This document shows positions 29,915 to 56,410 of a stretch of 64,000 bases of DNA, piece by piece. How positions within the stretch are numbered: the first letter of the stretch is position 1; every line of letters starts with the position of its first letter. The translations under genes were made by a program, and so were the position numbers. Under the pieces are notes generated by a model. That model did no database searches, was not told where the DNA came from, and saw nothing but the letters and a program-made list of their open reading frames with translations. The DNA comes from Fennellomyces sp. T-0311 (lineage: Eukaryota > Mucoromycota > Mucoromycetes > Mucorales > Lichtheimiaceae). The DNA is taken from positions 992,001 to 1,056,000 of the forward strand of contig JALLLT010000005.1 of the NCBI GenBank assembly GCA_025266875.1, read 5' to 3'.

Positions 29915-30254
29915 TTATAGAGAAATTAGTGAATGTTTTTTGTAGGCCGCGGAATGAGTAGTCACGTTGCAGATGTGCTTCACGTTTTGCTGCAAGGTGG
30001 CGAACGAGCTACCATCATAATAAGCACGAAATGAATTATCAGCACCTTCTTTCCATGATAAGTCATCGACCTGAGAAAGTTCAGGTCTGGCAATAGCCTT
30101 TAACTGATTCGCTGATATGTCTGGAAGTTCCCAGTCTTCTTGCCTCTCAACCAATAACTCACCAGGATTACTGGTAGCAGCCTTCTTAAATTGTCAACTG
30201 GTACAGTTCAAATTTGCAACAGCTTTTTGACACTTTATTTTACCAGCCATTCTT
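29915..30254 (-). pseudogene. Antisense ORF fragment inside the exonuclease pseudogene
   Basis: A minus-strand frame begins MAGKIKCQKAVANLNCTS, meets one TGA, then continues (KKAATSNPGELLVERQEDWE...) to a stop at 29915. Its composition looks protein-like and it lies in the sequence that interrupts the host pseudogene between the DUF6729 and DDE-like parts. I do not recognise it; it may be the remnant of another inserted element. Confidence 0.3.
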
Positions 30255-32429
30255 TAAGAGATCGAAACAAGATGGATATAGATGAGCAACGGCACGCTGA
30301 GATCCTAAACGTAGGTCCAGCCAATGACAGCGGGTATACCAGTGTTACACAAATATTTTAAACTCAATAAGGTATTTGGGTATTCTCAATTTTTTCTCGA
30401 CCTTAGTATATTTTGCCCGAACTGACCAACTTTGAACTCTCATAAAGTTTTTTTTTTGTTAGAAAAATAAATGAAGCGGCTCGTAATAATTATTTACAAA
30501 GGCTTTCTCTTCCATTATTACGAATTAGTTTTACGAAATATTGACATAGGAAAATGTTATAACGATTCAAAGTTGGGGTAAATTCGTGTCGGTTATTAAA
30601 TACATGCACCATACTTCGTCCGTTTATGGACAAGGAAATGGTTGCAATCGAAGGCGAGATACTTAAAGGGGATCATACGTTCAAGTTTATCAAGAAAATA
30701 GCAAGGATGGGGGACTCACCGACTTTTGGCGCACTTTATACAGTATGTAACGAGTACGAGGAGATCCGCACGCAGCTATTAGTACCTACAAAATCATTGT
30801 CGCATTTGCAAGCACCGTTCCAAGAAATGATGAAATCATACAAGATATACGGGTTCAATCCTCCACAACTATTTTTTACTGATAATGTCCGAGGAGACAA
30901 GTGATTTCTGCTTGACAACATACCTTCACTTAAAGACAATGCAAAAATTGACAACATAACCTTGACTGAATCCGACACCAACGCCCGGTTTTTTGCAACT
31001 ACCTGACGACATTTCCAGACACTATTTACGAGATGCAACAGAGGCTGATCAAGCTATTACCGACACGATCTTGTGTGATACTGAAGCCAAAACCATTGTT
31101 ATCGGTCTGGAACTGTGAACGGAACTTCAGTCGGCCTGGCCCTCCTGGGAAAGTCGCCACATTACAGTTAGCATACAAGGTACGCATTCATATCCCTTAC
31201 TATTTGCAAGGCACTTTTACTAAGTGGCATCCCATGTAGAATCATGTTTTTATATTGCCAATCCATCAATTCGACATGATACCACAGTCGGTAAAAATCC
31301 TTCTCACATCTGACAAAGTTCTGAAAGCAGGTCGTAACGTGGGTGGAGATATGAGCAAGTTACAGCGCGATTATGGGTTGGACTATAAAAGGAAACAGTG
31401 TTGGAGCTCGGCAAGTTTACTCGCAGAAGGGGTTATATCGATCATGGTGGAGCCCCATTGTCCGTGATAGCTGAGGCAGTTCTCGGTGGCAAGATCAAGA
31501 AGGATGATAAGAATGCCGATTGGGAATTGCAAACTCTCTCTCAAACACAGCTCGATTACGCAGCTCTTGATGCGTGGGTGTCGCTGGCTATTTACACGAA
31601 ACTTGCTCCCTTTCGCACACTTGGTAACACCGTACAAAGCCCCCCTCCACCTGGTGCATATGTTGCCGTATTTTCTTGCTTCCAATGGTCACGTCCAATT
31701 GCATATGGAGAGATACTGCCAAGTGAAGAGCAGCAGGTAAATTTTGGTTTTGTTCACTTTTATACAAAAAAAGTATGCGGTCAACTAACATGCTTAATAT
31801 ACTAGGACACGATTGACAATAGTGTTGCATATGTTTCGATCAATCATGTTTTAGTCCCGGCTGCTATTCTTGATGCAGGTACTCAAAAAACTCTTTCGGA
31901 TTTCGGTACAGCACCGTTTATCGCCAAAATACCTGTATCCATGCTACGGTTTGAGAAAAAATCACTGTGTGAACAGCAAGAGCAACGTCACGAGCAGCAT
32001 AGTCATCAATACCGTGATACCGAAGAAGCAAGGCAGCAGGAGATGCCGATTGGCATTAATGATCTCATGGATACCATATTGGACAAGAACGAAGGCGGTC
32101 GCGAGTCTTCATCCTCATTAATATCATCGTCATCATCAAGTGAAACCAGAGAGTGCATCAATAACCAAGGCGCAGCAATGGTGACAGATTTGGAATCCTC
32201 AAATTGTACATTCACGGTCAACCACGCTCAAGATGACCAGAAGTCACTACATCCACGGGTTCTAAAAGACATTTATCATTTCATGGCCTTGATCAAAGTA
32301 CCAAAACGGCACGCTCTTGCCAAGGAATTTTCACAACAATTACGCAACGCACTCTTTGTTCCAGACCCGGAAGACAAGAGAAAAGTGGAAGAATACTTGG
32401 CAGAAAAGAATCTGACATGGGCATACATA

Positions 32430-33780
32430 CAGTCCCACCCAAAAAGTGATGGCCAGATTTTTGAACACCGCGATTAAGTAAAAAAACATACAAACTTTGA
32501 TGTACTTTTTTTATACAATATATTGACCTAAACTGCTTGTTACCACCAATAACATACGCTTTTATTGGTACAATACTATATAAGATTAAAAAATAATATG
32601 CAAACTAATATTTTGTATGCTGTCCTCTAGCTTTTATCACTGCCTTACATCGATTAGGCATGCTGTCAACAAGCTTCTTCGCGAAATCGAGTGAAAGATT
32701 GCTCCATTCTTCTTGCAAGCAGGCCTTCAACTGTTCCTTGTTTTTTATGAAGGCTCTGCGCTTCTGAATACGCTTGTCAAGAGCCCTCCATACGTTCTCA
32801 ATTGGATTGAGATCAGGACTTTGGGCAGGCCAATACGGAAAGCCTCTCACCCCACATTGTCGCTTAAACCACTGGCTATAGCTACCAGTATGACAGCTAG
32901 CACCATCCTCCTGGAAGGTGAACTTCCTACCAGTCTCGGCTTCAGTACTCTTCATATATGGAATCAAGTGCTTGGCAAGGCAATCCACATAGGCGTCTTG
33001 ATCAACTGTGCCATCCATAACAACTAATGGGCCAAAGCCTCCAGACCAAAAGCAACCCCACACCATCACTGATCCCTTGCCAAACTTTTCGGTGGTTACA
33101 ACATGGTGTGCCTCGTAACGCTCTTCATTCCGTCGTATAACCCGAGCACCTCCATCATTGCCGACGATCGTAAATCTGGACTCATCAGACCAGATGACAT
33201 TGCTCCACTGGTTGGTCGTCCAATTCTTGTACATAACTGCCCATGCGCGTCGTCTGATGATATGGCTCTTCGTAAGTCTTGGCTTACGAGCTGGAGAGCG
33301 CGAAGAGAATCCAGAAAGTCGTAAATATTTGATGACCGTGTTTCGACAAGCATGTATTCCAGCATGTGCAAGGCTAGCTTGGTGTACATGGTATGGCGCG
33401 AACGGTTCCTTGCGTACACTAAGTTGGAACGCCCTTGCACCTCTCTTAGTAACCTTGGCAGGCCTTCCGCTTCGTGGAGCATTGTCAGTGGACCCAGTTT
33501 CCTTATATTTATTGACAATACGGTTGACAGTTCTACGGGGTATACCCAAGTCATCTGAAATGAACTGGTCACTCTTGCCACCCTTATATAGGCCAACTAT
33601 GAGACCTTTTTGGTGATAGTTGAGCTGTTTCCGAATATTTGGAAGGTCGTTTGTGATATTTCTAAGTGACATTGTGTTGTATAAAAAGAAAAGATGTCAA
33701 GATTTGAAAAACAAAACAGATGCAATGTTTTTATTTCCATTTCCAAATTCGGCTTGGCCATCACTTTTTGGGTGGGACTG
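32430..33780 (-). mobile_element. Tc1/mariner element A (1351 bp, 26-bp perfect TIRs, TA duplication)
   Basis: The left end CAGTCCCACCCAAAAAG... (32430-32455) is exactly repeated in inverse orientation at 33755-33780, 26 bp in all. TA dinucleotides flank it at 32428-32429 and 33781-33782. It carries a single intact transposase gene on the minus strand and sits in an exon of the exonuclease pseudogene. Perfect repeats and an intact ORF point to a recent insertion. Confidence 0.93.
32605..33672 (-). CDS. Tc1/mariner transposase, DD35E, 355 aa
   Basis: An intronless, intact cut-and-paste transposase. N-terminal paired-type helix-turn-helix domains are followed by a GRPxK AT-hook-like motif (SGRPAKVTKRG). 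The catalytic core shows first Asp in IWSDESRF, second Asp in FQEDGASCH and Glu in SPDLNPIENVW, with 35 residues between the second Asp and the Glu. The WGCFWSGGFGPL and YWPAQSPDLNPIE blocks are typical of Tc1-like enzymes. Start MSLRNITNDL lies 83 bp inside the right inverted repeat. Confidence 0.93.
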   Translation of the reverse strand: MSLRNITNDLPNIRKQLNYHQKGLIVGLYKGGKSDQFISDDLGIPRRTVNRIVNKYKETGSTDNAPRSGRPAKVTKRGARAFQLSVRKEPFAPYHVHQASLAHAGIHACRNTVIKYLRLSGFSSRSPARKPRLTKSHIIRRRAWAVMYKNWTTNQWSNVIWSDESRFTIVGNDGGARVIRRNEERYEAHHVVTTEKFGKGSVMVWGCFWSGGFGPLVVMDGTVDQDAYVDCLAKHLIPYMKSTEAETGRKFTFQEDGASCHTGSYSQWFKRQCGVRGFPYWPAQSPDLNPIENVWRALDKRIQKRRAFIKNKEQLKACLQEEWSNLSLDFAKKLVDSMPNRCKAVIKARGQHTKY

Positions 33781-35196
33781 TATATGTTAAACACAAATCC
33801 TTCTTGGGTTTTGCAAAGAGTCAAGCACATGGTGCCACCGCCGAGTGAACTGGAGCCTATTGTTCAAAATCTTTTCGCCAAGTATGGTTACTTGATCTGT
33901 ACTAGAACTGGTCGGACTTTTCGATAATGAAGCGCATCAGCAAGCCCAAAACATGCTCAAAGCCATTCATAAAGGCCAAATATCTGATCATCCTGATGTA
34001 CCATTATATTACAAAATGGGATACGACAAGAAGGCAAATCTTCCACTGTATCTGTGTGTAGTCGTGAAACCAACTCCCTCGCAGGAGGAGTCCACCAGAA
34101 TATTATTCATGCTATTGGTTCCAGTGGAGCCGGGCCACATTTTTCCGACTGTTTCCTTGCTGAATATCGGCTCCGCCATAATATAAGGGTGAGTAAACAT
34201 ATTTAGCTTTTATCTATCCACCCGTAATGCTAATGTACAATATAAAAGGTTGGGACTGTGAATCGCTACCAGCATCAACACAAAGGGCACCATGACCCAT
34301 GGTTGATTGGAACATTGCTATATCTGCGAATGAAATTGGTGAAGGTGGGCACTGGTGGTGCTATTGTGGAGCAAGCGGGTATGCATCTACAAGGCTTCCA
34401 ACTAAAAGGATGTGGGGATACATTTGCCATAGGAAGGTTCGCAGCTGAGGTTGCTAGAGAGCTCGGGATACCGATGGTTTTGACAGAAGAGCAAGGGAAT
34501 CAACAACAGAACAATTCGAATATATCTGTATCTCGTCCGCGCGCCATCGATATCAGTATCAACATCTTTCTGTCATCTGGATCTACTGCAAATCTTTTAG
34601 ACCAACGATACAAATTTCTCGCTCAACGTCAAGGAACAAAGCATGCAGTCACTCCGGTCCACACAAAAGAAGAATTCGGGAAGTTCAATGATTTTATACG
34701 CGAGGCAGCTCAGGGACCAATAGGTGCCTCAGACTGGATCAGATTAGCAAAGACATGGAATACCTCTGTATTGAAGCCAGTAGATGGAAGTACCATTTTC
34801 TACAAGTCGCCAGATCACCTGAAAATCCACTACGAGCGCTGGAACGAGAAGCGATTCACAGGGGCCAGCAAAGCAATAAGCAATGGTATTTGTGAGATAA
34901 TGCATGAGCAGCTATCATCACCAAGCCGAGAATGTCTTGTATTGCCTGCTATCACACCGTCATCACCACCATTTACCCTTCCGTCGGCAGGAATAGTTCA
35001 GGAATTAGCAACAAATCCAGTTCCAGAAACATTAGCTGCTACGACGGACACATCACCTTTACCAGTATCATCTCAATCATCAACGCCTATATATTCACCC
35101 AGAAGAATAGCGCCCGCGCCACCGTCACTCTCTCCATTGCAGCCACTGTTTTCCGTCAATGTCCAAATTCCAAGGAAGCGCACACGTCGTAAATAA

Positions 35197-35531
35197 GATT
35201 TGCGTATCACCAGGACCCTGGTAATCATTATATCCTTGACTCGATCTCCATTGTTCAATTATATTTTCTGTCGTCATTACCACATACATTTACCACCAGT
35301 AAAAGCGTAATAAATGCCCTTCATGATATGGTGCTCCCAGGGGATTTTTTTTAAAAAAAAAATATTTAATTTCTTCCCCAGGAACATTACTAGGATTTAA
35401 ACGCCAAGTTGCACTTGACTGAACGATTAAAAGGATTAATATACTAAATTTGTGTTTTATTGGTCAGTTAGAGTACTTACGGACGGATGTGATTGGAGCG
35501 TACTCAAGCAGCCACAACTGGTCCGCTTTCG
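35197..35531. other. Short convergent intergenic spacer
   Basis: Lies between the exonuclease pseudogene stop and the BRCT gene stop. It has A/T runs near 35340-35370. On the minus strand an out-of-frame stretch just past the BRCT stop stays open until a GTAAGT, discussed as a finding. Confidence 0.4.
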
Positions 35532-37614
35532 CTAGGGCTCGCTAGACGCCTCTGATGATCTCAGGCGTTTTGTATAATTCACTTGTGGAGTAGACGCCGG
35601 GGTTACCGATCGCAACCGTTTTTCCTTTGAACTACCCGGCCGTGACTCTTCTGTAACAAGAGAAGAATTGGAAGATACTTCAGCCGGCAGTGCTTGCTGT
35701 GGCAGTGACCTGTGCTTCTTTTTGAATTCATCGACGATACTCTTCGAGGTAAACTCCTTCCAGTCTTTGTAGACCAGCTTTGCTTCCTTCGGTCGAATAA
35801 TCTGATCGCTCCACCAATAACGAGATTGCTCAGTGTCAATTTGAGTCAATCCAACCAGATCTTCCATCGTAATGTTTTTGGATTCAAAGAAATAGATGTA
35901 ACGATCCTTGTCAGGCGGATAGATTTTCCAATCCCTAAAACACTCTTCCAGCCAAATGTGATTAACCACAGCAACGTTCATCTCTTTTGCTGGTTGATAA
36001 AGTTTTGAATGCTTGCTATTTACGAGGGTATTCTGTTAGAATGCCACAAAGTGGAGTTTTCTTAAGGTTACCTAGCACATATCGCATAGTTTGTTTCTTT
36101 TGTTAGGACCGCTGAATAGACAAATCCACAATATGCAGCGAGGTACTGCAAGTAGTAATTTGTGGTAATATCACGATAACCAGAAATCGTAACAATCTAT
36201 ATGCACGTGATGTTAGCACTATAGATATTGATATTATTAGAAATGGGAATATGTACTATACTGGATGACTTTTCAGTAATCATGCCCTTTGGGCTGGGGT
36301 AATCAAGTAGACTTCGAAACGGTGGAATAAATTCTTGGCGCCACATTGTATTGGTAAGCCACCAACAAGAAGCGACGAATTTGGCGTCTTTAGATGCTTG
36401 AAGGTAAGTTACTGATGAGCGATTTTCCACAATCGCGATCGTGACCTTGGTGCTGTCGTACGTTTCCGCTGTTTGCGCACCTGCAGCCATTAGGTGTTTT
36501 TTCCAATTCATCGAGTCAGGTAATTTTCTCTTTAACGCGGGTTCAATATAAATGCACTCGTGCGCAAGATAGGGCTTCGGGTCCAGATTGAACTTGTTGC
36601 TATGGTGAACCTTCAGGTAGAAATCTGAAGGGTGTGACGGAGGATGGATAGACGGTTCACCAAATGGCACATATGTAGTATGCTGAATGTTTTCACTGCT
36701 TATCAGCTCGGTAGTTTTTGATGTCAAGAGCAATGGCTTGGGCCAGGCATACCACTTCTGTAGTTCGAATCATGTGTATAAGCTTTTGCCAATGTATTAG
36801 ATACGCGCCAAGGATACCTCGTGTAAGTGTCTTGCTAGTTTAGTAGATTGCTCCACAAACTGCCTTGCTACAATAGTCATTGTGCCTTCATTGACATTTG
36901 CAAAGAATTTACCGCTCTATCGATATAACCAAATGTGTTAGGGCACTAATATCAAATGTGAAATATGCGTGACCGAAAGCAATTACCTCCGCAGACATAG
37001 TGACAAGGTGGGTCACATCATTTGATAACGTTGCGATATACATCCCGCCGAAATCCTTAACAAGGCCAGAAATGTGATGCTCATCGTATTCGGAAAGCTG
37101 GATCATTACATCCGTCAATCTCGCAGTTAAAATTGATCTGTGTTTCTTTTTTTCTATACTTACATCGTACGAAGTGACCACCATACCAGAAAAAATCATT
37201 TCTGGATCTGGAGAGTAATAAACAGGTTCATGTGCAAAGCCGTTTTTTATTGCTGCTGTTACCCACATGGGCTAATGAATATGTTTAGCATAAGTGCGTA
37301 CGAGTAAACATAGTCTGTTCTAATTACCGTGACAAAGGCACAGCCTTCCAGTTGCTTATATCGCTCTTCATCCGTGAGCTTGTAGCCTTGCGCAACAATA
37401 AAGTGTGTTGCTGTATTTCCTTGGACCTGTGAAGCCCCGTTTTGATTAAGTATTGGTCCCAGCTAATATAAAGACAGGAAAGTACAGAAAAATAATCAGT
37501 TTAATTAAAGCTTGTTCAGTAACTCTACATACATACCACTTGCTTCCTCATGGTGGCGTGAATTGTACTGTGAAATTGATATTTCACATTCGAAAAAACG
37601 CCTGGTTGAGACAT
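35532..37614 (-). CDS. Multi-BRCT DNA-damage-response protein (Rtt107/Brc1/PTIP-like)
   Basis: Exons on the minus strand from MSQPGVFSNVKYQFHS (37614) give four BRCT-like units. They are: 1, FSNVKYQFHSTIH...ATHFIVAQGY...MWVTAAIKNG; 2, IFSGMVVTSYDV...VKDFGGMYIATLSNDVTHLVT; 3, SSVTYLQASKDAKFVASCWW; 4, TISGYRDITTNYYLQYLAAYCG...VNHIWLEECFRDW. The W-containing helices at the end of units 1, 3 and 4 are diagnostic. This order resembles the N-terminal half of Rtt107/Brc1, scaffolds that work with repair nucleases and Smc5/6. The protein ends after a basic Ser-rich tail (KRLRSVTPASTP..., stop 35532) without the usual C-terminal BRCT pair that reads phosphorylated H2A. About seven introns; length about 560-600 residues. 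It is divergent from the Fanzor-like gene. Confidence 0.75.
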
Positions 37615-38066
37615 TGTATATGTTTGTTGGTAGAAAGAAGTGTCAAAAACATGTCCCAACTTTAATTTCGTGCAGCGCTGGACTGGTGATTACCGGTATT
37701 CCGGACCAAGAGAATTACGTCATGCGAGATTCGTATAGATGCCCATCAAGTACAAAAGATCACTCTGAAACGACAATAGAAAAGAATTACACAGTTACTA
37801 CATCTGTAATTGTAACAATAGGCGGATGGGTTGCGGGTGACTTAAGTATACTGCTACCCTTGTTACTATATTTGTCGTCCCTGATTAAGAGCAAAGACGG
37901 GCCACATGGGCTAGCTTTGGATATAAACATATCAGAACATTATAATCAGAGGCGATATTTATAGTAACTGCATCAAAATGCTGTGTATATCGTACTTGAC
38001 GCATACTTCTCGCCACTGCTCAATCCATGGGGCATGGTCAACCCAAGAGCATAAAGCAATCGTACA

Positions 38067-38075
38067 TTTATAAAA
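38067..38075 (+). promoter_or_regulatory. Possible TATA element of the Fanzor-like gene
   Basis: TTTATAAAA lies about 150 bp before the ATG at 38224 in the 609-bp divergent region shared with the BRCT gene. This is weak support, by position only. Confidence 0.3.
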
Positions 38076-38223
38076 TCGCCGGTGCTGCAACGAGGTTTGT
38101 TTCGACGATTAAAGGCAGCAAAGGGACTTAGAACTTCCAAGACGAAAAAGGAAAAACGCGTACACGGTGAATTTTGTGAGCGAGACTCACAAGCGACGCG
38201 CACCACTCTTGACTCCACGCACC

Positions 38224-41200
38224 ATGAATGATCCCATGGACACCGACAGCGATGTTTCACTGGAAAGTAACAGTGACACTGATCAAGAAACATTGGCTGA
38301 CGATCAGCTCCTTCAAGGTATGCATGGATAGGCGACCCTTATCCAAACACACTAACAATTTGTAAAGAGGTTGTGATTGGCCCATGCTGCTTTCAAGTGG
38401 CCATCAGGGATGAATTGGTCAATGCGATCAATGCGAATACTGATCAATCGTCGGATGCCACCAATCGCTATAGACGCGCGTACAGTGCTGCAGGCGAGCA
38501 GCCGATTGCACCAGAGTCGAGACGAAAAGCAGTTGCATGGCTCGAAAGACGCTGTTTGCAAGTATCCAGCACCACGATCACCGTACAGCACCTGCTTTGC
38601 ACGATTATGAACAGCATCCAAGTCCACGATCATCCGCCGGTCATGCTGCAACTTGGGAACGGTATTTCAGACGACAGACCAGTCAAGGGTCTCCTTGCCC
38701 TTACGGCGCTCGCGCACGCTTTGAACCTCACAGTATTCGTGTTTTGTACCAGGAAAAAGCCAATAATCGTCAACGATTGCGATTCTACGAGATACTCGAT
38801 ATCAGTGTTACACCACTTGGATTCGTTCGACGCAGTAGGCGAATGGGAGCCGCTGGAATTGTCTGATACTGAATTCTTCGACGAGCAGCAAGCGCTTCCC
38901 ATTGCAGAGCCACAGACTCCTACAGCAATCCTCCGATCAGAAGGGTCCAAGAAGCCAAGACAATCGAAAATCGATCACTCGAACATATCGGACGAAAAGT
39001 ATGAAGAAGAAATCATCAACACGATGTAAGTGGAAACGAGTTGACCAATTCATTGCGTATGAACGAAAAGTATCGATCATTGACCCCTTTTTTGATATAT
39101 AGCATGGATACTGTAGAAGTATATTACAAGGATCATGTTCTTTCTGCTGGTAAAACCATCGACGATGTCAGGGAGCAGCGGCGTACCGCCACCAGTCGAT
39201 TGCCGTCAGGATTTTGGGAAAAGGTGGCAAGCAAAATTAATTCCCAATACCAGCTTGATCTCTTGCCCGAGAACGTTCGCAACCACACTAAATCGGTGTT
39301 CAAGGGCGCAAACTGGGCTGCATTATGGGAGAATGAGCTTGAAAAGCTTCTTGCACGTGCTCCACCAACTTTACATACCGCGCCTGGAGCCGAATACGGA
39401 ATGTACTTGTCAGAAACCCACGATGATTACGTCCAAGAGGTATAGCTGTAACTTATACAGTTGGGTTCCAAAAGTTTTGTCGCGAAATTCAACTCCGTCT
39501 GTCAATTTTTTTTTATAGCTTAAAAGAAAAGTCCTGTCTTTTCTTTTTTTCATTAATCAACACCCCTTTTTTTTTGTAAAAAAGCAATAGTTTACCCTCC
39601 TGAGAAGCGTATTGAAGCAATCACTTTACTCAATGTTGGCTGGAATGCTCCAGAAATTGCCAAGCAAATCGAGATCCCATTACGCATTGTGGAACGTTGG
39701 GTTGACAAGTTTAAGAAAACTGGCAACAAGTACAGAGATATCGCTTCTGGAAGGCCAAAAGCACTAGACAGTCATAGCGAGCGACAAATTATACGAAATG
39801 CAAAGTCTGACCGGCGTCAAACCTTAGGCGATATTACAAATAATTGTGTTAAGAAAGTGTCAAAGTCAACAATTCGACGCGTGTTACATGCAAAGGGTGT
39901 TCACAGCAGAATCGCCAAGCGCAAACCTTTTCTCAAGCCACAACACATAGCAGCGCGCAAGAAGTTTGTTAAGAAGCACAAAGATTGGACTTTAGAAGAT
40001 TGGAGGAGCGTTGTCTGGACTGATGAATGCTCTTTTGAAACTGGAAAAAATTGCCGTGTTGTTCGTGTCTGGAGACAAGCACATGAAGTTGACTATCTGG
40101 ATTGCATGACACCTACCTTTAAAAGCGATAGGTCCACAGTAATGATATGGGGTGCTATCACCTACGGTCGCAAGTCTGAACTCGTGTTTATAGACAAGAA
40201 CAGACGTAAAGCTGTTGACTTTGTGGATCAAGTGTATGCTGGCGCATTGTACGAGTTTTGGAATAGCCTGGAAGATCCAATTCTGATGGAAGATGGCGCA
40301 CCAGTACATAGAGCAAACGTTCCTAACGTTTGGCGTCAAAAAAATCGAATTACAAAGCTAGACTGGCCGGCCCAGAGTCCAGATCTAAATCCTATTGAAC
40401 ACGTTTGGCAACAGATGAAAACAATGGTACAAGCCAAGATGAACAGCGGCTCGAGGACCACCGAAGCACTTAAGCAAGCAATACAAGAGGCATGGAACGA
40501 GCTTCCAATCGAGAACGTGAACAAACTTGTGGATTCTGTCCCCAACAGAGTCGATCTTGTACAAAAAGCCCATGGTCGTAGTACTAGATATTAATGTCAC
40601 TGTAATTTTTTTTTCTGTCATTGCTTCATTGCTTTTTTTTATCTGTACATAATCTACATGAAATTCTGCTTCTATTCATACCCTTTGCCAATTAAACTTT
40701 TATTAGGATTTACTTCTAGTATAACTGGAAAGTCTTTAAGACATCAAATTTTAGCCTTGTCGGAGCACCTCACGACAAAACTTTTGGAACCCAACTGTAC
40801 TCTGACGATACGTATCAACTTATCAATCATCCGTAGCTTGTGCGCATGCATGTTGATGATGCCGGGCAGCAAGAAGAGGACGTCGAGTCCACGCCAATGG
40901 AACCTGAGCTGGAGGAACCGATGATCATCAATGAAGATGATGACAGCTGGATTTCCGAGGTAAGGGTTCGATGAGCGTATTTCCGGATTTGAGCTGACTG
41001 CGTTATAGTCTGTTGCACAAGCACTTGCGACAAAGCTATCGCAATACAAAGACGAGCGACGAGTGGTACAAACATCACTGAAATATGCGTTGCGCGATAC
41101 TTTGAGTGCCGAGGACATCGCTGGGAAGCTTGACGAGGAACAAGCAAAAGTCAGTCGTGAGATAGACTCCATGCACGGTCCCATAGAACTTCTCACAGAC

Positions 41201-44200
41201 ATGGTAAGTAGTACCATTCCACTGGTGTCTCGGCTGGATAGCGTTACTAATTGAAAATGCGTCCTTTGAAGGTTGCAAGCGGCCGCCTCGCTGAACTTTA
41301 TGATCCAGAACAGAAGCCAAAGGAGTTTGACATCAAGCAACTGGTGCCACAGAATTTCATCCAAGATACTGAGTCGGAGACACGCTTCCCCATCTGGGAA
41401 CCGGACGCAAAGCTTATCAAGAAATTCCAGAAAGACAATGTCCTGTCGTTCCAGCATCTGTCCCGCACAGCGACGGCATACCTTGGCAGGAAGGAAGCCA
41501 AAGAACCAAACAAGTAAGTTGGCATGCTTATTGAAAACGGTGCTTGGCTGATCTACTCCTTATAGGAACCTCCAAGTAGTTATGGATCATCTGCTGGAAT
41601 CTCTACCTCACGCCACGGTAGATAAATTCACGCACAGGCATAGTTTTGCTACCGCACTCGCTCAACTGAATGTATCAGCCACAAACATATGGTCCGAGCG
41701 GCGTATGAAGCGCGATGTCAAGAAACTGGTGATAGTTCTGTTGAAGATGGCGCTCCGACCAAAGTCGTTTCAACGTTATATCCAACATTGTCAGCCAAGA
41801 GACGATAATGCCAAGGAGCTTGACGAGTTCGATCCGGACCAAGTTCTATCATGCGATTCTGTCCTTTCAGACCGCGAATGGTACCAGCGCTACAGGGAAA
41901 TGTGCACCGACCTGGCTTTGAGGTTGAACTCCCCAAACGCCCAGAGACGCGCAGGAGCTTTGAAGCTAATCGAGTACATGAAAGCTGCCGCAGCTTTGAC
42001 ACCAGTCCTTATCCCGAACGACCGCATTGGACAGCATCTTGAGGAAGATTCAGACGATGACGACGCGAATATGAATGTAGATCAAGATGAGGGGATAGAG
42101 GAGGCACGAAACGAAGAATACGTCAAGGCTTTGGAGGACGACTTTGATGATGAAGAGCTGGCGGCGGAAGATATTTGCGAAGGAACCCAGATCGAAGGGG
42201 ATGAAACCGAGACCGAGATGGCAACCATCCGCGCACTACTGGCAATAGTTACTATGCTCGTGCACACTCCAAATATAGAGCACCAGGTCACCGCGTCTTA
42301 CATCCTAAAGCAAGTGTATTCGGGCACCACGGTATCGAGGGAGGAAGCACAAGTGGCAGCGAACATCGTCAACGCCCTTCGGCCGTTTGTACCGCACAAA
42401 CCAGAGAAAGGAAAGGCACCAGAACTCTCAGTGTTCAACTTGGCGCCACTGGCGACGCTTACCAAAAAAGTCATGGAAGCCATCAAATTGTCCAAGCAAT
42501 CTTGGAAGCTCGTTCCAGATTCCAAGCCCAAGATCGCCTTGGTTTTAGATGCAACATCCCTGTACGAAACTCTTGGAGACACGTACACTTTGTACGGCGG
42601 TCAAAGTGTGATGATTACGAGTGCTAAAACTGCAAGCTACTTTCGGGATACCATGCTAGCGAGTATCTTCAATATGAAGATGATTAGCAATTTACTCTGG
42701 AATCGTGGGCGCCGCCGAGCGGATAACGTACTGGTGTACACGAATCGCTGGACCGTTGGTTGGCTGGGGACGAAGTCGGTGGCGGTCATCAAGCCCGAGA
42801 CGAAAGAAAAGCAAGACCGTGCTAGCCAGACAAAGCCTCCAAAGCTGAAACAAAACATCCAGGAACTCACCAAGGATATCGGTCGCCTGGCAAAACAGCA
42901 AACCACCGCAAACAAGGCTTTTGCAGGTTCACTTGTACAAAAAATGGACTGTTCCGCAAAACAGGGAAACAATCGTATAACCTTGAGCGAACGTTTAAAC
43001 AACATCCAATCATATACCAAGGCAAAAGGACAAGCGGATCAAAACTGGGTTGCTATGGAGGAGATACGTGAAGAGTTGGCCTCTAAACGAGCGCAACTCT
43101 ATAAACTGAACAAGTTGGACAAGGGCCAGCCTTTGCCAAGGCCTTCAAAGCCGGAGGTAACACTGTAATTGAACAACCACACGAGCTGTCACTGATTCGG
43201 TATTCTTCTGTAGGTCATATCAAAGACCAAAGACTTTGACTTTGGAAACACAAACAATTTCGTTTCTGGAAGCGACCCCGGGATTGTGGTGACGACGTGT
43301 ACGACAGGCCAAACATTGGGATCGATGTTTGAACATATCAACAGATTCGCAACATTGTACGGCACCGAAGATGATGACCTTGATCCCTCTGCCTCTGGAC
43401 CCAGTGAAGAATCAGTAGCAATGGATATTGACGTTGCCCGTCCTGAGCAACAGCAGCTCAAACGCATTTCCTCATTGTCAGGCCCACACAAGATTACAGC
43501 CAAAAAAATTAACTGTATCACGCTATCGACAAAACATCGCAAAAAACGAGAGAGGAAGAAGCGTGCTGGAAAGGAGGCAAGTTCGAAATCGTTGGAAAAA
43601 GACAGGAAAACGCGCGACGTTCGAGACAAGAAGGCACACCGTCGACTCTCAGCACGGACACGAGCTGCAATCGTTGCTGGTACAAAGGGAAGCCACGTGT
43701 TGAACTGTTTTGGAAGCTGGGTTCCGCGTGAGTTTGTTCGCATGGATACCTATGACTCGAAACTGACAATATTGTATAGGGAACAACCCGATACGAGGGC
43801 ATGCACGCAGAGGTTCCAACAAAACCAAAGACGCGATGTGCTCAGTGCAAGGCGACTGCACTGTAGTCGGCGATGAACATTTGTCGTCATCCATATGTCC
43901 TTACTGTTTCCGGCGTTTGCACAACCATATGTACCGCAGGCAAAGAAAGAAGAAAAAGTCTAATGGGTCGAAAATATGCCACAACCCTGGTTGTCCCAGT
44001 CGCGAACTCAGATGCAACACAATGAACCGAGACAGCATCGGCAGTTTCAATATTGCACTCATGACTCTTTCTACGATGATTGCGAAGGACGGCCTGGTCT
44101 TCCCCCCCTTCCGACGCGCAGCAACAACAACCAAGCAACACAAGTCTTATCTTGCTAATAACTACTCTCCCGCGCTTGCTCCCATTGGTAATACGATCTT

Positions 44201-44222
44201 TCCCTTGAGCTTTCATAGGTAA
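38224..44222 (+). CDS. Fanzor1-like RuvC nuclease (eukaryotic TnpB/OMEGA family), 9 exons
   Basis: Exons 38224-38317, 38368-39025, 39103-39439, 40837-40959, 41009-41203, 41272-41513, 41566-43156, 43214-43727 and 43780-44222 join with GT-AG introns into 4197 nt, 1398 residues, with no lesion. The C-terminus has the TnpB/Fanzor order: RuvC-I GSDPGIVVTT (D1101), a basic helix KHRKKRERKK, FGSWVPRNNPIRGHARR, then VVGDEHLSSSICPYCF (E1284; Cys 1291, 1294), second zinc pair C1318/C1323 (KICHNPGCP) and RuvC-III NRDSIGSFNIAL (D1336). Known Fanzors are RNA-guided DNA nucleases, often carried by transposons. The N-terminal 1080 residues include an OTU-like stretch (about 32-230), acidic runs (about 705-760) and helical REC/WED-like sequence I cannot assign. 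Intron 3 contains a Tc1 element. Alternative: a Fanzor-derived host gene or transposon cargo. Activity is not shown. Confidence 0.75.
39458..40797 (+). mobile_element. Tc1/mariner element B (1340 bp) inside intron 3 of the Fanzor-like gene
   Basis: The left end CAGTTGGGTTCCAAAAG... (39458-39482) is repeated inversely and perfectly at 40773-40797 (25 bp). TA target duplications lie at 39456-39457 and 40798-40799. Removing the element and one TA leaves a 55-nt intron with donor GTATAG and acceptor CCGTAG. The element is unrelated in its ends to element A. Confidence 0.92.
39689..40594 (+). CDS. Tc1/mariner transposase, DD34E; N-terminus uncertain
   Basis: The open frame from MERWVDKFKK (39689) encodes the catalytic core: VVWTDECSFE, ILMEDGAPVHR and SPDLNPIEHVW, with 34 residues between the second Asp and the Glu. 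Homology clearly starts earlier in the same frame (YPPEKRIEAITLLNVGWNAP, from about 39592), forming the first helix-turn-helix, but no ATG precedes it after a TAA at about 39554. Either a short upstream exon is spliced on or the start has been lost. The transcript direction is the same as the host gene. Confidence 0.8.
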   Translation: MERWVDKFKKTGNKYRDIASGRPKALDSHSERQIIRNAKSDRRQTLGDITNNCVKKVSKSTIRRVLHAKGVHSRIAKRKPFLKPQHIAARKKFVKKHKDWTLEDWRSVVWTDECSFETGKNCRVVRVWRQAHEVDYLDCMTPTFKSDRSTVMIWGAITYGRKSELVFIDKNRRKAVDFVDQVYAGALYEFWNSLEDPILMEDGAPVHRANVPNVWRQKNRITKLDWPAQSPDLNPIEHVWQQMKTMVQAKMNSGSRTTEALKQAIQEAWNELPIENVNKLVDSVPNRVDLVQKAHGRSTRY

Positions 44223-45340
44223 CTAATATTTCGATTAATCAGGATCCCAGGCGCGTCATTCAGAAGGATGAATGGGCATGGTAAGTCGTGGCGCCACAAT
44301 TAAAAGCTTCAGTTTTTTCTTACCCCAGGCATGTTTTCATAGCCCAAATGCTGAATATATTTATATGGTAGACTGTATGCTTAATGATTTAGTGATATAG
44401 CAGAATATCTTTAAAGATGCTCCGTATGTATTCCTACTACGTCCCATCATTCCTCCAGCGACTTGACAAATGTGCGTACTAAACATGAGTGTGATCCCGT
44501 TTGCTTCAGCTTGCTTTATATAACAGTGCTAATAAAGAGAAAGCCTACCAAAATTTCACTTACAATCTCAAATTCCATGCGTATAAGCGTTTGGCAAAGA
44601 GAATGAAATCTTCATTGCCTATAGCCATCAGCACGCAAGTGTGCTGAACACTAAAAACACCTTGTGTGCGCAAAAGTATAGTAAGCATTAATTGGTTAGA
44701 TACTACAAAATTATAGTAGTTTCTGCGTGTATCCATTGATCTGTAGATTGTAGGCTCTTGATAATCCTTGCTTCAAGAAATCAAGAGAGAGCAGCTACTG
44801 CTAATGAAGATCTGTGTAGTAGTCGACCTGAACATTGGTTAACTTGGTAGTAGGCTATTCATAATACTACATAGCTACCACAGTGCTGACAAGTATCATT
44901 CGTTATTGTATCCTGAGAAGCAATTCGAGCCAATGGCACTAGCATGTTGATATAGGTCGCATGATAGAGCTTATTATACGTAGCCAGCATCAGGTTTCGG
45001 TTGTAGGTCGTATTAGGACAATCAAAACACAATTTGTCAATGGTTGTTTGCGATAGTTACCTAGCATTTATCCGACTCATGCTCACTGATATACCCTAAG
45101 TTTGCTATGTTACTATTTGGATACTCAGTGGGACGTATGACGCGTGTGTGAAATCTCAATCGTCCAGTGTCCCGCTTGAGCAGGTAAAGCTCTAAAGTGA
45201 TGTCGACTCACTTTATTATACACAGTCGGGAGAAGTTAACTGGCAAAAGTGTGGAATCAGGTAAGTATATACCAATCAGTTCTACTTTATAATGCATGTA
45301 ACACTACCATATAACATGTAATAAATTTAGAAGCACTTGT
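44223..45340. other. Intergenic region after the Fanzor-like gene; possible guide-RNA region
   Basis: No protein gene is visible. A 10-bp palindrome GTGGCGCCAC is at 44288-44297, 66 bp past the stop. In characterised Fanzor loci the guide RNA overlaps or follows the 3' end of the nuclease gene, so this is where one would be expected; no conserved RNA fold can be recognised by eye. Confidence 0.3.
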
Positions 45341-45781: not shown

Positions 45782-46034
45782 CGAATGTCCTAAGCATCTA
45801 GTACTTTTTTTGTATCCACATGGATCCGTAACTATAATGAGCTTACGTACGTCGTTTCCCAGAATAAAACCAAGACGTACGCTGTGATCATGTTATTTCA
45901 AAACAGATAGATCCATATGCACCATTCTTTTGGATTAATCGATTTGCACAGTATCAAAGCGCGAAACCATAGAACGTCAAACGCGTTTTCTGTTGTTTCC
46001 AAAATCAACGCTCAATTATCACGCAATTTCTATT

Positions 46035-47186
46035 ATGGTAAACCCACGCTAGCTTGGAAAGAACACTGGTGTTTTTGCAAACCCAGTTGGTTTTGAATCC
46101 ATCGGGTATGTCAATTTCTAAAAAGAAACATACACGACACTGACAATATATCTCACTTAGCATGAGCAACTTTTACGGCGCATACAGTGATGAACAGAGC
46201 ATTACCGTCCTGAACCGAGTAGTCGAGCTCAGATTCACTTTCTAGGACACGGCTGATTGCTACTGTCTTGGTGGAGACGAACGTCTTCTCGGCGAATTCT
46301 CTGCAAGAGAGGGCAAGTGCGATAACCTGTTCCTATGCATTAAGTTCGGAATCTTGCGTAACGAAGCAGGTGACTTTACTGGATCCAATGGAAAGCCAGA
46401 GTATGTTCGTGAAGCATGCGAAGCCAGTCTGAAGCGCCTTGGTGTTGATACAATTGACTTGCATTATATGCACCGTATGGATCTTGACACATAAATCAGT
46501 GGATAAGTACATCATCATAAGATTAGCTTTACTGACAGTCTTCTCTGCAGTCCTATCGAGGAAACAGTCAAGGCTTTAGCTGAACTGCTAAAAAAGGAAA
46601 GATTCGGTACATTGGTCTTCCTGAAATGACTACAGACGAATTGCGTCGTGCTCATAAAGTGAATCTCATTACCGCCGTCCAAGTCGAATACTCACCTTTG
46701 ACTTTGAATATCGAAACTGATGGCGTACTTGCAACATCACGTGAACTCAGTGTATCCATTGTTTGGTAGTAAGTCGAAGATCACACGGAGAAAGTAATGG
46801 GTAGTAATGTGGGTGTAAAGCTCTCCTTTGGGACGTGAATGCTTGACAGGTGCAATCAAATCATCTGAATGAAGATGACTGGCATCGCGTGAACCCACAC
46901 TTTTTGCCTGAAAACTTTGCAAAGAACTTGGTGATGGTGGACAAGATCCAAGGCATTGTAGCAAAGAAAAGGATTTCCCTGCAGAACTGATATTGGCGTG
47001 GGTGTTGAGTCCGGGAAAAGACTTTTTCTTGATCCCAGCAGCGAGCGAGTCAAGTATCTAGAGCAAAATGTCAAAGGTGGTCAACCAGACTTATCCAGTG
47101 AAGGATTGGCGAAAATTAGAATCATAGTGAATGCCGCTACAATTAGCAGTGAACATTACATTGGTACAGATCTCTACACAATATAA
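46035..47186 (+). pseudogene. Aldo/keto reductase (pyridoxal-reductase-like) pseudogene, unit A
   Basis: Aligned blocks of an AKR run in order: NPR-LGKNTG, MSNFYGAYSDEQSITVLNR, GKCDNLFLCIKFGILRNEAG, GKPEYVREACEASLKRLGVDTIDLHYMHRMD, PIEETVKALAEL, VQVEYSPLTLNIETDGVLA, FLPENFAKNLVMVDKIQ, RVKYLEQNVKGGQPDLSSEGL. These are NADPH-dependent TIM-barrel oxidoreductases. Lesions: TAG at codon 6 (46050-46052), a stop after the barrel entry, a one-base loss near 46600, a TAG after SIVW and a frame change near 47040. Two intron remnants are still visible. A second copy lies about 9.07 kb downstream. Confidence 0.8.
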
Positions 47187-47337
47187 TCAATACGTCGCAA
47201 CTTTCGACCACCCAAATGCTGTAACACGACTATAGTTATTGAATATTTATAACCTTTTACCTATAATTTTAGTAAGAGCCACTGATCTTTGTAAAGTTGA
47301 TACGCGATAACATTAATTAAGCAATAATGCTCGAGCT

Positions 47338-48988
47338 TTATTCTTCGTCTTTTTCGGACGAAAGTACCTCAATCAGCGCCATTTTTTTCTCACCATCCCA
47401 GTTGACCATCCTCGTAAAAGAATTGCCATGTTTAGCTACCAAAGTGCTGATGTTAAAAACAGATAGCTCACGTTGTGCTTTGCTCATAGATTCAAACTTC
47501 CTTTGCGTCTCTGGGTCATCTACGAGTGATACCACCACTGGGCGTGTATTCCTCTGTACGGAACTGCTTTGCTTATGTACCCATTTCAGGTTTTGCGCGC
47601 GGTTGTCCAGCCGGTCTCCGTTAAGGTGTATGATAACATTCCGTGTTTCGCTATAGTCGTCAACAAAGGCGTTGGCGACAAGACGAGACACCGTCAGGGC
47701 CTTCGGGCGTGTATGTAAGTCTTGGTTATCGTGGTGCATGTATACACAAGGATGGCCGTAATATGTATGGTATAATTTGAGAAGCTGAGAGCTATCTCTG
47801 TTGCGAACATGGCCCATGTCGGATACTTCATACTTGCTGAAAGACAATCCATTCCATGGAAGAGCACCGATGGTCTTCCACCTTGTCTCCTCGGTAATTG
47901 ATGGCAGCGGTATTACGTTGCGTGTGCTTCCTTGCTTCTCTGATGCTTCCGATCGTTCTTTTTCTCGAGTTTTACGTGGCAGTTTGGGGTCAGCGTATAC
48001 TAGGTTTTCCAGCGAGTTGTCATGCTTATCGCCGTTCATGTGAGAAATAAGAACGTTTTCTGGTCGACATCCATTGAAAGACAGCATAACGAGAGCATGA
48101 ATCTGGAGAGTAACACGGTAATTGACCGTCTGTTTAGCACCGGTATCACACATTAGGATGACATACAGATATCCCACCCCATCCTTTCCCGGGCGGAGAT
48201 GGCTTCCTCTGATTAGGGAGTATACGTTTCCAGTGTTCGAGACGAGGTAGCGCTCAAATGTCAGAGTGTCGTGTACATTGCGCACTACAGCGTATTTTGT
48301 GCCTTCTGGGTGCAATTTCTCCAGTCTGGCAATCTCGTGATCTTGTAATACAGCCAAGTTATCGCATACAACGAGATTGGACCACGCACAGTTCTCTCGC
48401 TTGCCGTCTTTGTGGAATATGTATTGCTCATCACTGTTGTATGGTTTTTCTGAGAAAGTGTACACCATGATCTCCTCCAATTTAAAGGCTCTCTTCTTCG
48501 TTTTGTCCAGAACGAGATAGTGAAGGTTCGCATATGCTCGTTTCAAAGGCTTGAGTTTTCCGGTAGCGTTCGAGTAGACAACAGCGCCCTTGTTGACGAA
48601 ATAACGAGGGTCTGTGGTAACCGGTAGTCTTGCGTGACGGATTGGTACCAGCTCTTGGTCCTCTGCTGTGTTCGCAATAGACGCGTCTTTTTCGCGTTTG
48701 ATAGTAACCGCGTCTACAGAATCAAGCTTCAGAACGGTGTGTACACGTCAGAAAGTTTTGTACCTTGAGCAGATTTATCATCGGTACTCTGAGTATCATT
48801 ATGTTCGTTGCTTGGTTCCGAGGGCTCACTGTGCTCCCTCTCGGGTTCTGGACAGAATAGTTACAGATGATTTCATTCATTACGACTGATCCTTGATTAC
48901 CCTGTGATCGCTCTTCCGTGGTATTCTTATCATCGGATTCTGTCTTCTGTAAAGCATCCATTTTCGTTTCTGTCTCGGATTCAGGCAT
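47338..48988 (-). CDS. Triple NUMOD4/HNH-like module protein, copy A (515 aa)
   Basis: Three exons (48988-48901, 48847-48764, 48713-47338) join in frame. After an acidic Ser/Glu-rich N-terminus (1-60) come three tandem modules, each a NUMOD4-like strand pair followed by an HNH-like half. Module 1 (about 92-165) has RYFVNKGAVVYS ... IFHKDGKRENCAWSNLVV. Module 2 (about 205-300) has RYLVSNTGNVYSL ... ISHMNGDKHDNSLENLVYAD. Module 3 (about 335-430) has YEVSDMGHVRNRD ... IIHLNGDRLDNRAQNLKWV. The H-x-NGD-x-x-DN-x-x-NL pattern is that of HNH_3 homing-type nucleases of phages and some fungi. Module 1 has degenerate catalytic positions; modules 2 and 3 keep His, Asn and Asp. An intact gene antisense to the AKR relic suggests recent transfer or selection. 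Confidence 0.8.
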
Positions 48989-49514
48989 TGTGAAGCGGAA
49001 ACAGGATAAGAAAGTCGAGATAGTGGTCACACGACTCTTCCGAAATGATCGTGACACTCCAGCAGTCCGACGAAGCAAAGCTCTGTGAGATCATACCAGT
49101 ATATTGTATATACAATAATCCATTTTACGCCAAGCTTAAAAAACACATACATGATATACCATGGAACCGCTTCGCAAAACCGACTTCAATGATTTTATAT
49201 AACTTAATTATACGGGTTAATCGGTCCCAGTCATGAGATGCCTGCATAGAGAGGAGATGGCACTTGACGCAAATATAGCGACTGGCATGATACATAGAAG
49301 CTATCCTGACGATTCAACAGTTGCCGTCGATTGGAAAAGAACAGGGTTATCGGGTCGTAAAGTGAGGACACATATCCAACTTTGCAATATCCAGCCAAAA
49401 GTCAAGAAAATACCTGAAACTGTCTACTATAACTCGCTCAAAACTCTGAGCTCCACTCACAAAATTAGGCATATCCGCTTCAGCAATAGACTGGTTACCA
49501 TGGTTTCTAGGTAA

Positions 49515-49590
49515 TAGCCATGTACTATGGAGTTTTTCTGCTGGAGTAGGTAGTAAGGGTGATCTCATATCCTTTTTCCATAGAGTACTT
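49515..49590. repeat. 76-bp insertion present only in copy A, imperfect inverted ends
   Basis: Compared with the equivalent point in copy B (near 58582), copy A has an extra 76 bp whose borders contain GTACTATGGA and, inverted with two extra bases, TCCATAGAGTAC. It resembles a tiny non-autonomous element. Confidence 0.5.
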
Positions 49591-50127
49591 TCCGGTCCGA
49601 ATGCTTTTGCACTTTTGACATTTCTATTTTCTATGCTTTTCAATTTGTCGTTTACAGGTACTGCTTTTATTTAATTCCTTCTAGCGCCGGTCTATTTTTT
49701 GACGTATCTCGGTCCCAAATTGCAATAGCAATACGAGCGCAACTATCCCTTATTACTTTCATTTATTACCATCCATGACAAAAGAACAAAATGGGCCCTC
49801 AGCTTGGCCAATTTTCTTAAACCTTGATAAAGACATGAATCAAAGACAAAAATCACACTTGTCTAAATAAACTTTTCCTCTGTCCCTAATTTGACTAACT
49901 GTTAACATCACTGAGTCCGTCATTTGAATTCACTACAAAAAAAGCTAATAGATCAATCGCAGGATCAGTTTCCATTTAACGACAAACGCTATCAAGATGG
50001 ATTTTCCAAGGCACTACTAGCCTTTGGCTTTTAGACTTCTCTGAGGTTTCTCACTTTCGAATATTTTTCATTTCATGTGTTTTTCTTGCTCTGACATTTC
50101 ATTTCGTATGCTCATCTTCTACTTCAG

Positions 50128-50418
50128 ATGCTCTTGGCATATTATCGTTTAGCAGAAGCTTATTATTTTTCGATCATAACTCTATACCAAGTTACGCTAG
50201 GAATAAAAACTCAACGGTTCCATGAAGCGTGTATCCGGGAGCATTTAGCACAAAATACCAAACATACTTTTGCATCGCAAAAGCGTCCTGTAAGTCACGT
50301 TTAACCACCAAAAAAATATATCTCATCCAAGTAAACTTTTTTCCTCCAGCGCGAATACTTTAAGCCGCTACCGAAATTGGATGCGGCTATAACTACTTTA
50401 CAAAAAGCAGATATATAG
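50128..50418 (+). CDS. Unknown small gene, 3' exons, copy A
   Basis: An exon opening right after an acceptor-like TACTTCAG reads MLLAYYRLAEAYYFS ... HTFASQKRP. It splices at GTAAGTCACG to an exon after CCTCCAG reading REYFKPLPKLDAAITTLQ and ends at TAG 50418. Both exons are also open and spliceable in copy B (59133-59423), with only two or three residue changes. Upstream exons are likely (for example near 49770-50030) but not resolved. The family is not recognised. Confidence 0.35.
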
Positions 50419-51366
50419 CAAGGAGATTCAATTGCTGGTTTAACGAATAAATGTACCCAGAGGACCTTCGAGCATTGCACTGCTGGCTCGAAACGAGGTA
50501 CGTAGAAAGTCAGTGCTTTTATTTCTAGTCAAGTTCATGTGATTTTTTAAAGGCCAATTCACTTTTATAGCAAGCTTATCGATCTGGATATACCTTTGAA
50601 TTGCTGCATATAATCAATATGGAAAAACCTCTCCTTTCACTTTTGGATTTTAATCCCGCCGGTTATGCCCGTATGTTCTCTGACTTTGCTCTATACGTAT
50701 CTTGTATTCTCATGTATGCTACTTCTTTTTAATTATTCGAGTCACGAAAAGCACTGGATGGTCGAAAAGGAGCAATTGGAGCCGACTTCTTCGTAATTTT
50801 TGGGATAACTTATTACGTAGTCATTGATTTGACTACGTAGCTATAAAAACAAGCAAAGGTACATTTAGACTCTCCACAAAGTGTACTTTTACTTCAAATA
50901 GCTCTAATCGTTGAATGATATAGAACAATATACGTGACTGAGCAGAAATACTTTTGTTAGCTCAACCACCGATCGGATTCATTTGTCATAAAAGTTAATT
51001 ACAGAGAAATCTAAGGTGTATCCAGAAGTTGGGTGGCTGATTGAACCAGCAACTAAGTAAAAGTTTTGTTAAAACCAAGTAGGGTACTGTAAATGTGTTT
51101 GTAAGTTCATGTAGTAAGTAGATTTGACTGATTGATAACGCTTTTCTTTTTAAAAAGCACAAATGTGCATCCAATAATTTTAGAGCAAAGTTAGCCGATG
51201 GATGAGAAGTTAACTTAGAAAACATGCAGCTATCAACTATAACCACTGCTCTTTAGGCTCATCAACACTTCAAGCGATTGTAAAGCGGCGGAAGAAACAG
51301 CAGCGTGAAATGCCCAGAAAGTCTAATCAGACTACGTTCTGGGCATACAAGAGGTTTCGTTCTACG

Positions 51367-54839: not shown

Positions 54840-55137
54840 TTAACCCCTCCCCGATATAGAATTGGACATTGCAACCACCAACCACGGCACTATATCACTG
54901 AAAATAATTTCTGGGGAATTTTGGTGAATGATTTTTTGAAGTTGTTAAACATAAGTTTTTTAACCGCTTGAGTTGCTAAAAATGGTAGTACAGATGGTTA
55001 AAAAGCTTGTGTTTAACTGCTGTAACCACTTTTAACCATCGAAATTTTTTGCAGTGATCCGCATGAGTAGTTTATTCTGATGCTCTAGTTGCACGGCAGC
55101 TCTAGCATAAACGCTCAGTTGTCACCCAATTTGTATT

Positions 55138-56259: not shown

Positions 56260-56410
56260 TCAATACGTCGCAACTTTCGACCACCCAAATGCTGTAACAC
56301 GACTATAGTTATTGAATATTTATAACCTTTTACCTATAATTTTAGTAAGAGCCACTGATCTTTGTAAAGCTGATGGCCGATAACATTGATTAAATAATAA
56401 TGCTCGAGCT

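Follow-up and report, generated by a model that had tools for sequence, protein, structure and literature searches.

Structure of the Fanzor Gene

The stretch of the Fennellomyces sp. T-0311 genome analyzed here (64,000 bp of contig JALLLT010000005.1, positions 992,001 to 1,056,000; hereafter the window) harbors a gene that likely encodes a Fanzor1-type nuclease. This gene occupies positions 38224–44222 on the plus strand, where nine predicted exons with GT..AG introns join into a single frame of 1,398 codons plus a stop codon, in agreement with the initial annotation. No lesion is present in the reading frame of the window copy. It forms the right-hand part of a composite transposon, newly described here, that spans positions 28101–44344 (16,244 bp) and is bordered on both sides by a 9-bp target-site duplication (TSD) without mismatch. 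An earlier reading, according to which the gene merely sits amid decayed elements, is not borne out. The components of the gene are listed below.

38224–38317, plus strand: exon 1, residues 1–31
38368–39025, plus strand: exon 2, residues 32–250, N-terminal domain of unknown fold
39103–39439, plus strand: exon 3
39457–40798, plus strand: Tc1/mariner element in intron 3, 1,342 bp, TA-flanked; Pfam DDE_3, E = 1.7e-15
40837–40959, plus strand: exon 4
41009–41203, plus strand: exon 5
41272–41513, plus strand: exon 6
41566–43156, plus strand: exon 7, residues 550–1080, with a putative REC/WED region in its second half
43214–43727, plus strand: exon 8, residues 1081–1251, RuvC-I with D1101
43780–44222, plus strand: exon 9, residues 1252–1398 and stop codon; E1284, C4 zinc finger, and D1336

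The join between exons 8 and 9 is supported because the homologs P0001 and the L001 open reading frame (ORF) run uninterrupted there, and the join between exons 7 and 8 is supported because the annotated paralog P0003 carries the same join. Intron 3 (39440–40836) is 1,397 nt long because of the Tc1/mariner element within it, whereas the remaining seven introns are 49–77 nt. The transposase ORF of this element (39557–40594) is stop-free and has 345 codons, and its TA site is empty in the paralog on C136. The enlargement of intron 3 may impede splicing, which would count against a functional gene.

Assignment to the Fanzor Family

The C-terminal motif order described in the initial annotation was confirmed. 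The RuvC-I motif DPG is present at D1101, and E1284 is located six residues ahead of the zinc-finger residue C1291, which corresponds to the alternative glutamate position. The C4 zinc finger (CPYC at 1291 and CHNPGC at 1318) is followed by an NRD motif that ends at D1336, such that the catalytic-type residues are D1101, E1284, and D1336. Together, DPG and a glutamate at this spacing from the zinc finger make up the published Fanzor fingerprint (PMC10711439).

At the family level, alignment A1 comprised six rows from three subfamilies, namely the window protein, four sequences of a subfamily designated B, and one sequence from C104. Positions D18, E201, and D253 of this alignment are invariant in all six rows. 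The profile built from it had the Fanzor SpuFz1 as its sole match in the PDB (E = 1.9e-4), with an alignment that runs from the glutamate across the zinc finger to NRD. A second profile, to which the database relatives P0001, P0002, and P0005 were added, matched SpuFz1 (E = 1.8e-5) and the Parasitella parasitica Fanzor1 (E = 7.6e-4), with Cas12f following at E = 0.075. No Fanzor chains other than SpuFz1 (PDB 8gkh) and the P. parasitica protein (PDB 9cf0) were retrieved with the family profiles. The HMMER alignments span RuvC-II, the zinc finger, and RuvC-III; RuvC-I was assigned by motif only. In addition, five of the six rows of alignment A3 match PF07282 at E ≤ 1, and the in-genome paralog L001 just meets the Pfam cutoff for this family (26.3 bits).

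Several results weigh against this assignment. The full 1,398-residue protein matched no Pfam family at E ≤ 1, and for its C-terminal 315 residues the top-ranking family, PF07282 (Cas12f1-like TNB), fell short of the cutoff (E = 0.14). A phmmer search of the PDB with the full-length protein did not find a Fanzor. The AlphaFold model of the RuvC region of the relative P0001 (six rows) was too poor to use (pLDDT 41.8), as was the structure model of exon 2 alone (pLDDT 35.5). When L001 alone was compared with the PDB, SpuFz1 ranked first at only E = 0.28. The profile search proposed in the initial annotation gave a mixed outcome. The family profiles support the Fanzor identity, as does the DPG/alternative-glutamate fingerprint in the window protein itself, but single-sequence searches with that protein in Pfam and, by phmmer, in the PDB do not. 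The best solved relatives are Fanzor1 proteins, and the gene is likely of the Fanzor1 type. It belongs to the same nuclease superfamily as the prokaryotic TnpB/IS607 RNA-guided nucleases and likely shares their role of donor-site retention. Unlike these prokaryotic systems, it has a relocated glutamate, introns, and a far larger N-terminal part.

Subfamily B in the same genome consists of L001–L008 (with L050 joined to L001) and L051. A Pfam TNB search of the genome identified 17 places at E ≤ 0.001, with the window gene not among them. Two of its copies share 95.8% identity over 4.8 kb, start with CCCTTTTTAGGCG, end with GATTTTT, and have different flanks. L052, the C104 locus, is a third Fanzor-like copy, with DPD in place of DPG in RuvC-I. 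The ORFs of C104 have no evident counterpart of window residues ~250–700.

The Extended N-Terminal Region

With 1,398 residues, compared to 638 in SpuFz1, the window protein is about twice the usual Fanzor size, and 1,100 residues precede D1101. Most Fanzor1 proteins have 600–700 residues (PMC11423790), and Fanzor lengths reach about 800 residues (PMC10711439). The loop before RuvC is located at residues 345, 392, and 448 in three solved Fanzor1 proteins (PMC11423790). Subtracting these positions from the 1,100 residues ahead of D1101 leaves about 650 extra N-terminal residues. The initial annotation was therefore right that the N-terminal region is unusually long compared to published Fanzors, but counting all of its roughly 1,080 residues as extra would be too high because the Fanzor REC and WED also precede RuvC.

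From residue ~770 onward, the window protein can be aligned across all three in-genome subfamilies. Residues 32–250 are weakly similar to subfamilies B and C104 (25–27% identity). Both subfamilies also have long layouts, with several ORFs each, and the subfamily B ORFs hold recognizable pieces of the middle region of the window protein. No known domain was found for residues 32–250 in Pfam and PDB profile searches, and comparison of the N-terminal region with the PDB yielded nothing significant (best E = 0.49). An OTU-type cysteine protease, suggested by eye for residues 32–250, was rejected, as Pfam gave no match, the PDB search returned no OTU chains, and the Cys and His are not conserved across all three sequences.

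In a set of 5.8 billion proteins, no full-length relative was found at E ≤ 0.001 among the best 7,985 candidates or at E ≤ 1 among 970. This absence is weak evidence because the search requires shared five-residue words and similar length. The RuvC profile had five matches in the same set. For the extra part of ~650 residues, and for any Mucorales Fanzor with a long N-terminus, no earlier description was found in the open-license literature searched; weakly similar N-termini are present in the two other subfamilies sampled in this genome.

Boundaries and Copies of the Composite Transposon

The composite unit and its boundaries have the following coordinates.

28092–28100, no strand: left TSD copy CAAATGCTG, identical to 44345–44353, abutting the element end
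28101–44344, plus strand: composite transposon, 16,244 bp, consisting of a DUF6729/exonuclease half and a Fanzor module; TSD 9/9
28101–28125, plus strand: left terminus GTGGGTAAAGCTACTGGGGTAGACA, aligned with C172, C2, C123, C154, C151, and C79
37640–44344, plus strand: Fanzor module, with a left boundary common to copy C136
44323–44344, plus strand: right terminus CCCCAGGCATGTTTTCATAGCC; its final 15 letters have five exact matches in the genome, all in the Fanzor-module family
44345–44353, no strand: right TSD copy CAAATGCTG, abutting the element end at 44344

We read positions 28101–44344 as a single transposed unit because 9-bp TSDs are found at common ends and because agreement at all nine positions is rare by chance. 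Among random pairs of 9-mers from the window, 9/9 agreement occurs at a frequency of 5.5e-5 and agreement at seven or more positions at 0.0016. When the genome (45.6 Mb, 182 contigs) was searched for copies, two loci were found to have both ends of the composite. Copy C2 has ACTTTTGGG on either side (TSD 9/9), and copy C172 is flanked by CTAATCTCG and TTAATCTAG (7/9). In both, the Fanzor part begins at approximately residue 620, and the DNA before it matches window positions 28100–29009, which lie 12.8 kb upstream. Because C2 and C172 join both composite ends and have their own duplications, they are likely transposed internal-deletion derivatives. The Fanzor-module copies C136, C116, C172, and C2 share 91–96% DNA identity, and all of them stop at window positions 44344–44347. 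The 3′ part of the Fanzor gene is present in eight loci (window included) and the 5′ part in two. Furthermore, the right ends of both halves share TTTCTT(A)CCCCAGG, for which four of 500 shuffles were as good.

Some observations would fit two unrelated, adjacent elements with 9-mers that match by chance. Elsewhere in the genome, left-half copies stop at 35394 with no Fanzor attached, and C136 has the Fanzor module without the left half of the composite. C136, which alone among the other copies contains the 5′ part, speaks against a single unit in having no duplication and no composite left end in the 4.9 kb upstream. The same is true of the outer ends of the composite, which are not detectably inverted repeats (130 of 500 shuffles were as good), and CAAATGCTG occurs four times in the window overall, two of these being the TSD copies. 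Nevertheless, an exact 9/9 match that abuts both ends makes such a coincidence extremely improbable.

Other boundaries were considered and rejected. A separate element at 37640–44344 would be expected to have a duplication of its own, but the nine bases that precede 37640 do not match the nine that follow 44344; the nine that precede 28101 do. A partner element sharing the Fanzor ends was also not found, as all five exact matches to the right-end 15-mer belong to the Fanzor-module family, and the matches with up to two mismatches (62 + 53) were not above the reversed-pattern control (91 + 87). The left-end 16-mer of the Fanzor module has two exact matches in the genome, in the window and in C136, and for inverted ends of this module 25 of 500 shuffles were as good. 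Helitron ends were not seen.

The Left Half and the Stretch Between the Halves

The remaining components of the composite are as follows.

28101–35394, plus strand: left half, DUF6729/3′-5′ exonuclease element; the last letters of its right end are missing in the window
29232–29657, plus strand: DUF6729 part of the left-half gene (PF20499, E = 7.1e-11), cut by a nested element
29658–30611, no strand: nested element in the left-half gene, with ~31-bp inverted ends, multicopy; ends approximate
31389–31802, plus strand: 3′-5′ exonuclease domain of the left-half gene (PF01612, E = 9.3e-8)
32429–33781, minus strand: nested Tc1/mariner element with a transposase ORF at 32608–33696 (minus strand); Pfam DDE_3 and HTH_Tnp_Tc3_2; ends approximate
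35395–37639, minus strand: stretch between the halves, with BRCT-like ORFs; no other DNA match found

Judged by the duplications around its copies, the left half alone is a mobile element. Copy C154 has AAAAAATTG on either side (TSD 9/9), and C123 is a 5,030-bp element flanked by GTAGATCCG and GTAGATCCT (8/9). The left end is widely shared, with 25 of the 48 other matched rows beginning there (query positions 44–61; the row of the window itself aside), and matches elsewhere stop at window position 35394 (query position 1745). Copies C123 and C154 finish with ..TTACTAGGGCC. C123 encodes DUF6729 (E = 4.9e-11) and the 3′-5′ exonuclease (E = 1.8e-13) in two ORFs and continues through the DUF6729 region without the insert found at 29658–30611. 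Between these two domains is a DHTFK..FTDN stretch, which we take to resemble the core of a DDE transposase and for which no Pfam model matched.

Other findings on this half count against the reading proposed here. The left-half gene of the window is interrupted by the 0.95-kb nested element, and its ORFs matched no transposase model in Pfam. At E ≤ 0.1, the ORFs of the left half and of the fuller copy C123 yielded DUF6729 and DNA_pol_A_exo1 but nothing of the MULE type. A duplication was readable in two of the four left-half copies with fetched ends, and none was seen in the fetched pieces of C79 and C151. A 9-bp TSD is a MuDR/MULE trait and is found as 9/9 in the window, C2, and C154, 8/9 in C123, and 7/9 in C172. 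For the two ends of the left-half element itself, 24 of 500 shuffles were as good in the inverted-repeat test. Because the tests for a MULE domain and for inverted ends both fail, we refer to this half as a DUF6729/exonuclease element rather than a MULE.

Between the halves, the BRCT-like ORFs (35535–37271, minus strand) match PTCB-BRCT (E = 7.4e-6) and are 40% identical in protein sequence to part of a gene on C115; they may represent a captured fragment of a DNA-repair gene. At the right of the left half, an ORF at 34246–35193 has weak similarity to PvuII restriction endonuclease, below the cutoff (E = 0.0061). A similarly weak PvuII similarity, also below the cutoff, was found at L086:4152–4841 (E = 0.0016). 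Outside the composite, the ORFs at 26064–26891, about 1.2 kb left of the insertion site, presumably correspond to a proteasome-type AAA ATPase. Two long direct repeats are also present in the window (46004–51103 and 55107–60108), with 93% and 98% identity over 3.5 and 1.5 kb, respectively.

As in the published Mucorales Fanzor1 elements, the Fanzor gene is within a mobile element of a Mucorales fungus. PMC3627910 describes the MuDR-like Fanzor1 elements ROr-4, PBl-3, and MCi-4 (from Rhizopus, Phycomyces, and Mucor) as having 9-bp duplications and encoding no MuDR transposase, and MCi-2 as having a 6-kb Fanzor part with variable left parts. The composite in the window has 9-bp duplications like those of the first three, and its family, like MCi-2, keeps the right, Fanzor-coding part while the left parts vary. 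Unlike these MuDR-like elements, the unit in the window also carries a DUF6729/exonuclease gene (interrupted) and a piece of a BRCT gene.

Lesions and Selection Among the Copies

The lesion comparison covered the copies C136, C172, C2, and C116, with the more distant C172b, C150c, and C97 outside it; gaps at truncated 5′ edges (C172, C2, and C116) were not counted. All four copies are broken. The lesions of C136 comprise two stop codons, nine frameshifting deletions, two insertions, and two further deletions of 9 and 1,254 bp. Frameshifting indels number nine in both C172 and C2, with five stops in the former and two in the latter; those of C2 include insertions of 86 and 434 bp. C116, which contains the 3′ part only, has one insertion.

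Pairwise ratios of nonsynonymous to synonymous substitution rates (dN/dS) between the window copy and these four copies are 0.44–0.63, with the C116 value including some codons aligned to foreign flank. Such values would be expected for a pair with one constrained and one decaying member. Changes private to single copies were compared in codons with at least three sequences (777 of 1,398). The window copy has 12 silent and 18 replacing changes, corresponding to a lineage dN/dS of 0.42, whereas the four other copies together have 66 silent changes, 123 replacing changes, and six stops. The ratio of silent to replacing changes does not differ between the window copy and the broken copies (Fisher's exact test, P = 0.54). 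The initial annotation had inferred selection from the absence of lesions. That inference is partly supported; the frame was kept in the window copy while all four close copies tested were broken, but the lineage dN/dS is no different from theirs.

These patterns bear on two further explanations. The gene may be a domesticated host gene, selected for a cellular role and merely located within old transposon sequence. In favor of this possibility, the 1,398 codons are lesion-free among broken relatives, and the private branch of the window copy (0.0186 singletons per site) is shorter than those of C136, C172, and C2 (0.033–0.047); C116 has 0.0207. However, transposon ends and a perfect TSD flank the gene, a Tc1 element is found within its intron 3, its lineage dN/dS resembles that of the broken copies, and its family comprises at least eight loci. 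Domestication is thus quite improbable. Alternatively, the gene may be a recent and now inert passenger that is intact through youth alone, unexpressed, and mobilized, if at all, in trans. The Tc1-bearing intron 3, far longer than the other introns, the interrupted left-half gene, and a dN/dS without a sign of private selection are all consistent with such a passenger. Nevertheless, the frame and splice sites were kept through 30 private substitutions in the compared codons, whereas the four sister copies carry between one and 13 indels each (edge effects dropped), which makes this explanation doubtful.

Candidate Guide RNA and Proposed Mechanism

One further feature, at the right end of the composite, concerns a possible guide RNA.

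44223–44344, plus strand: candidate guide-RNA scaffold, 122 nt, from the stop codon to the right end

The 122 nt past the stop codon may serve as the scaffold of a guide RNA, in which case the guide would start with CAAATGCTG. Identity in two diverged copies is 84% and 82%, ungapped, over the 67 nt that directly follow the stop codon. In the same two copies, exons 8 and 9 have 70–77% identity, the following stretch about 60%, and intron 8 80% and 77%. The conservation of the 3′ stretch is weak support for a scaffold because the intron 8 control is nearly as high. Counting against a scaffold are this small margin over intron 8 (82–84% vs. 77–80%), folding of the 3′ stretch that is no better than that of shuffled sequences (z = 0.37), and the lack of covariation, with none of 24 pairs changed on both sides.

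Taken together, we consider it fairly probable that this is a lesion-free, likely Fanzor1-type gene that ends a 16.2-kb composite, with a guide RNA from the right end directing cleavage of the emptied donor site and repair restoring the element. The DUF6729/exonuclease protein would act as the transposase that excises the element. A guide RNA would be read from the right end of the transposon, with the guide beginning in the duplicated target, and the Fanzor, if its nuclease is active, would cut the emptied donor site, such that the element may be copied back from the sister. Donor-site cutting and copy-back have been proposed for TnpB and Fanzor (PMC10432273). The extra N-terminal part may tune the binding of RNA, target, or partner. 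With intron 3 lengthened by the Tc1 element and the left-half gene interrupted, the window copy of the composite may be only partly functional.

As for the origin of the composite, the extreme right tip of a DUF6729 element was probably lost, after which movement made use of the right end of a Fanzor element, the next such end downstream, and thereby carried the piece of the BRCT gene along. In a more far-reaching form of this proposal, a DUF6729 DDE-exonuclease transposase and an RNA-guided nuclease with a new N-terminal module of ~650 residues would be combined in one mobile unit, and the module would physically couple the nuclease to the transposase or to host repair. Such a guide-RNA-assisted eukaryotic homing transposon would have a layout found in no solved Fanzor, and we regard it as unlikely.

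Fanzors are found in many types of transposons, and testing what they do for the transposon is hampered partly by the lack, in many of these elements, of a recognizable transposase or clear ends. The composite described here contains a candidate for the transposase gene, and C123 elsewhere in the genome holds a fuller version of it. Given its base-exact ends, deletion derivatives that have likely moved, this candidate transposase gene, and a predicted guide that would read from CAAATGCTG onward, restoration of the element at its donor site by a Fanzor would be directly testable in this family.

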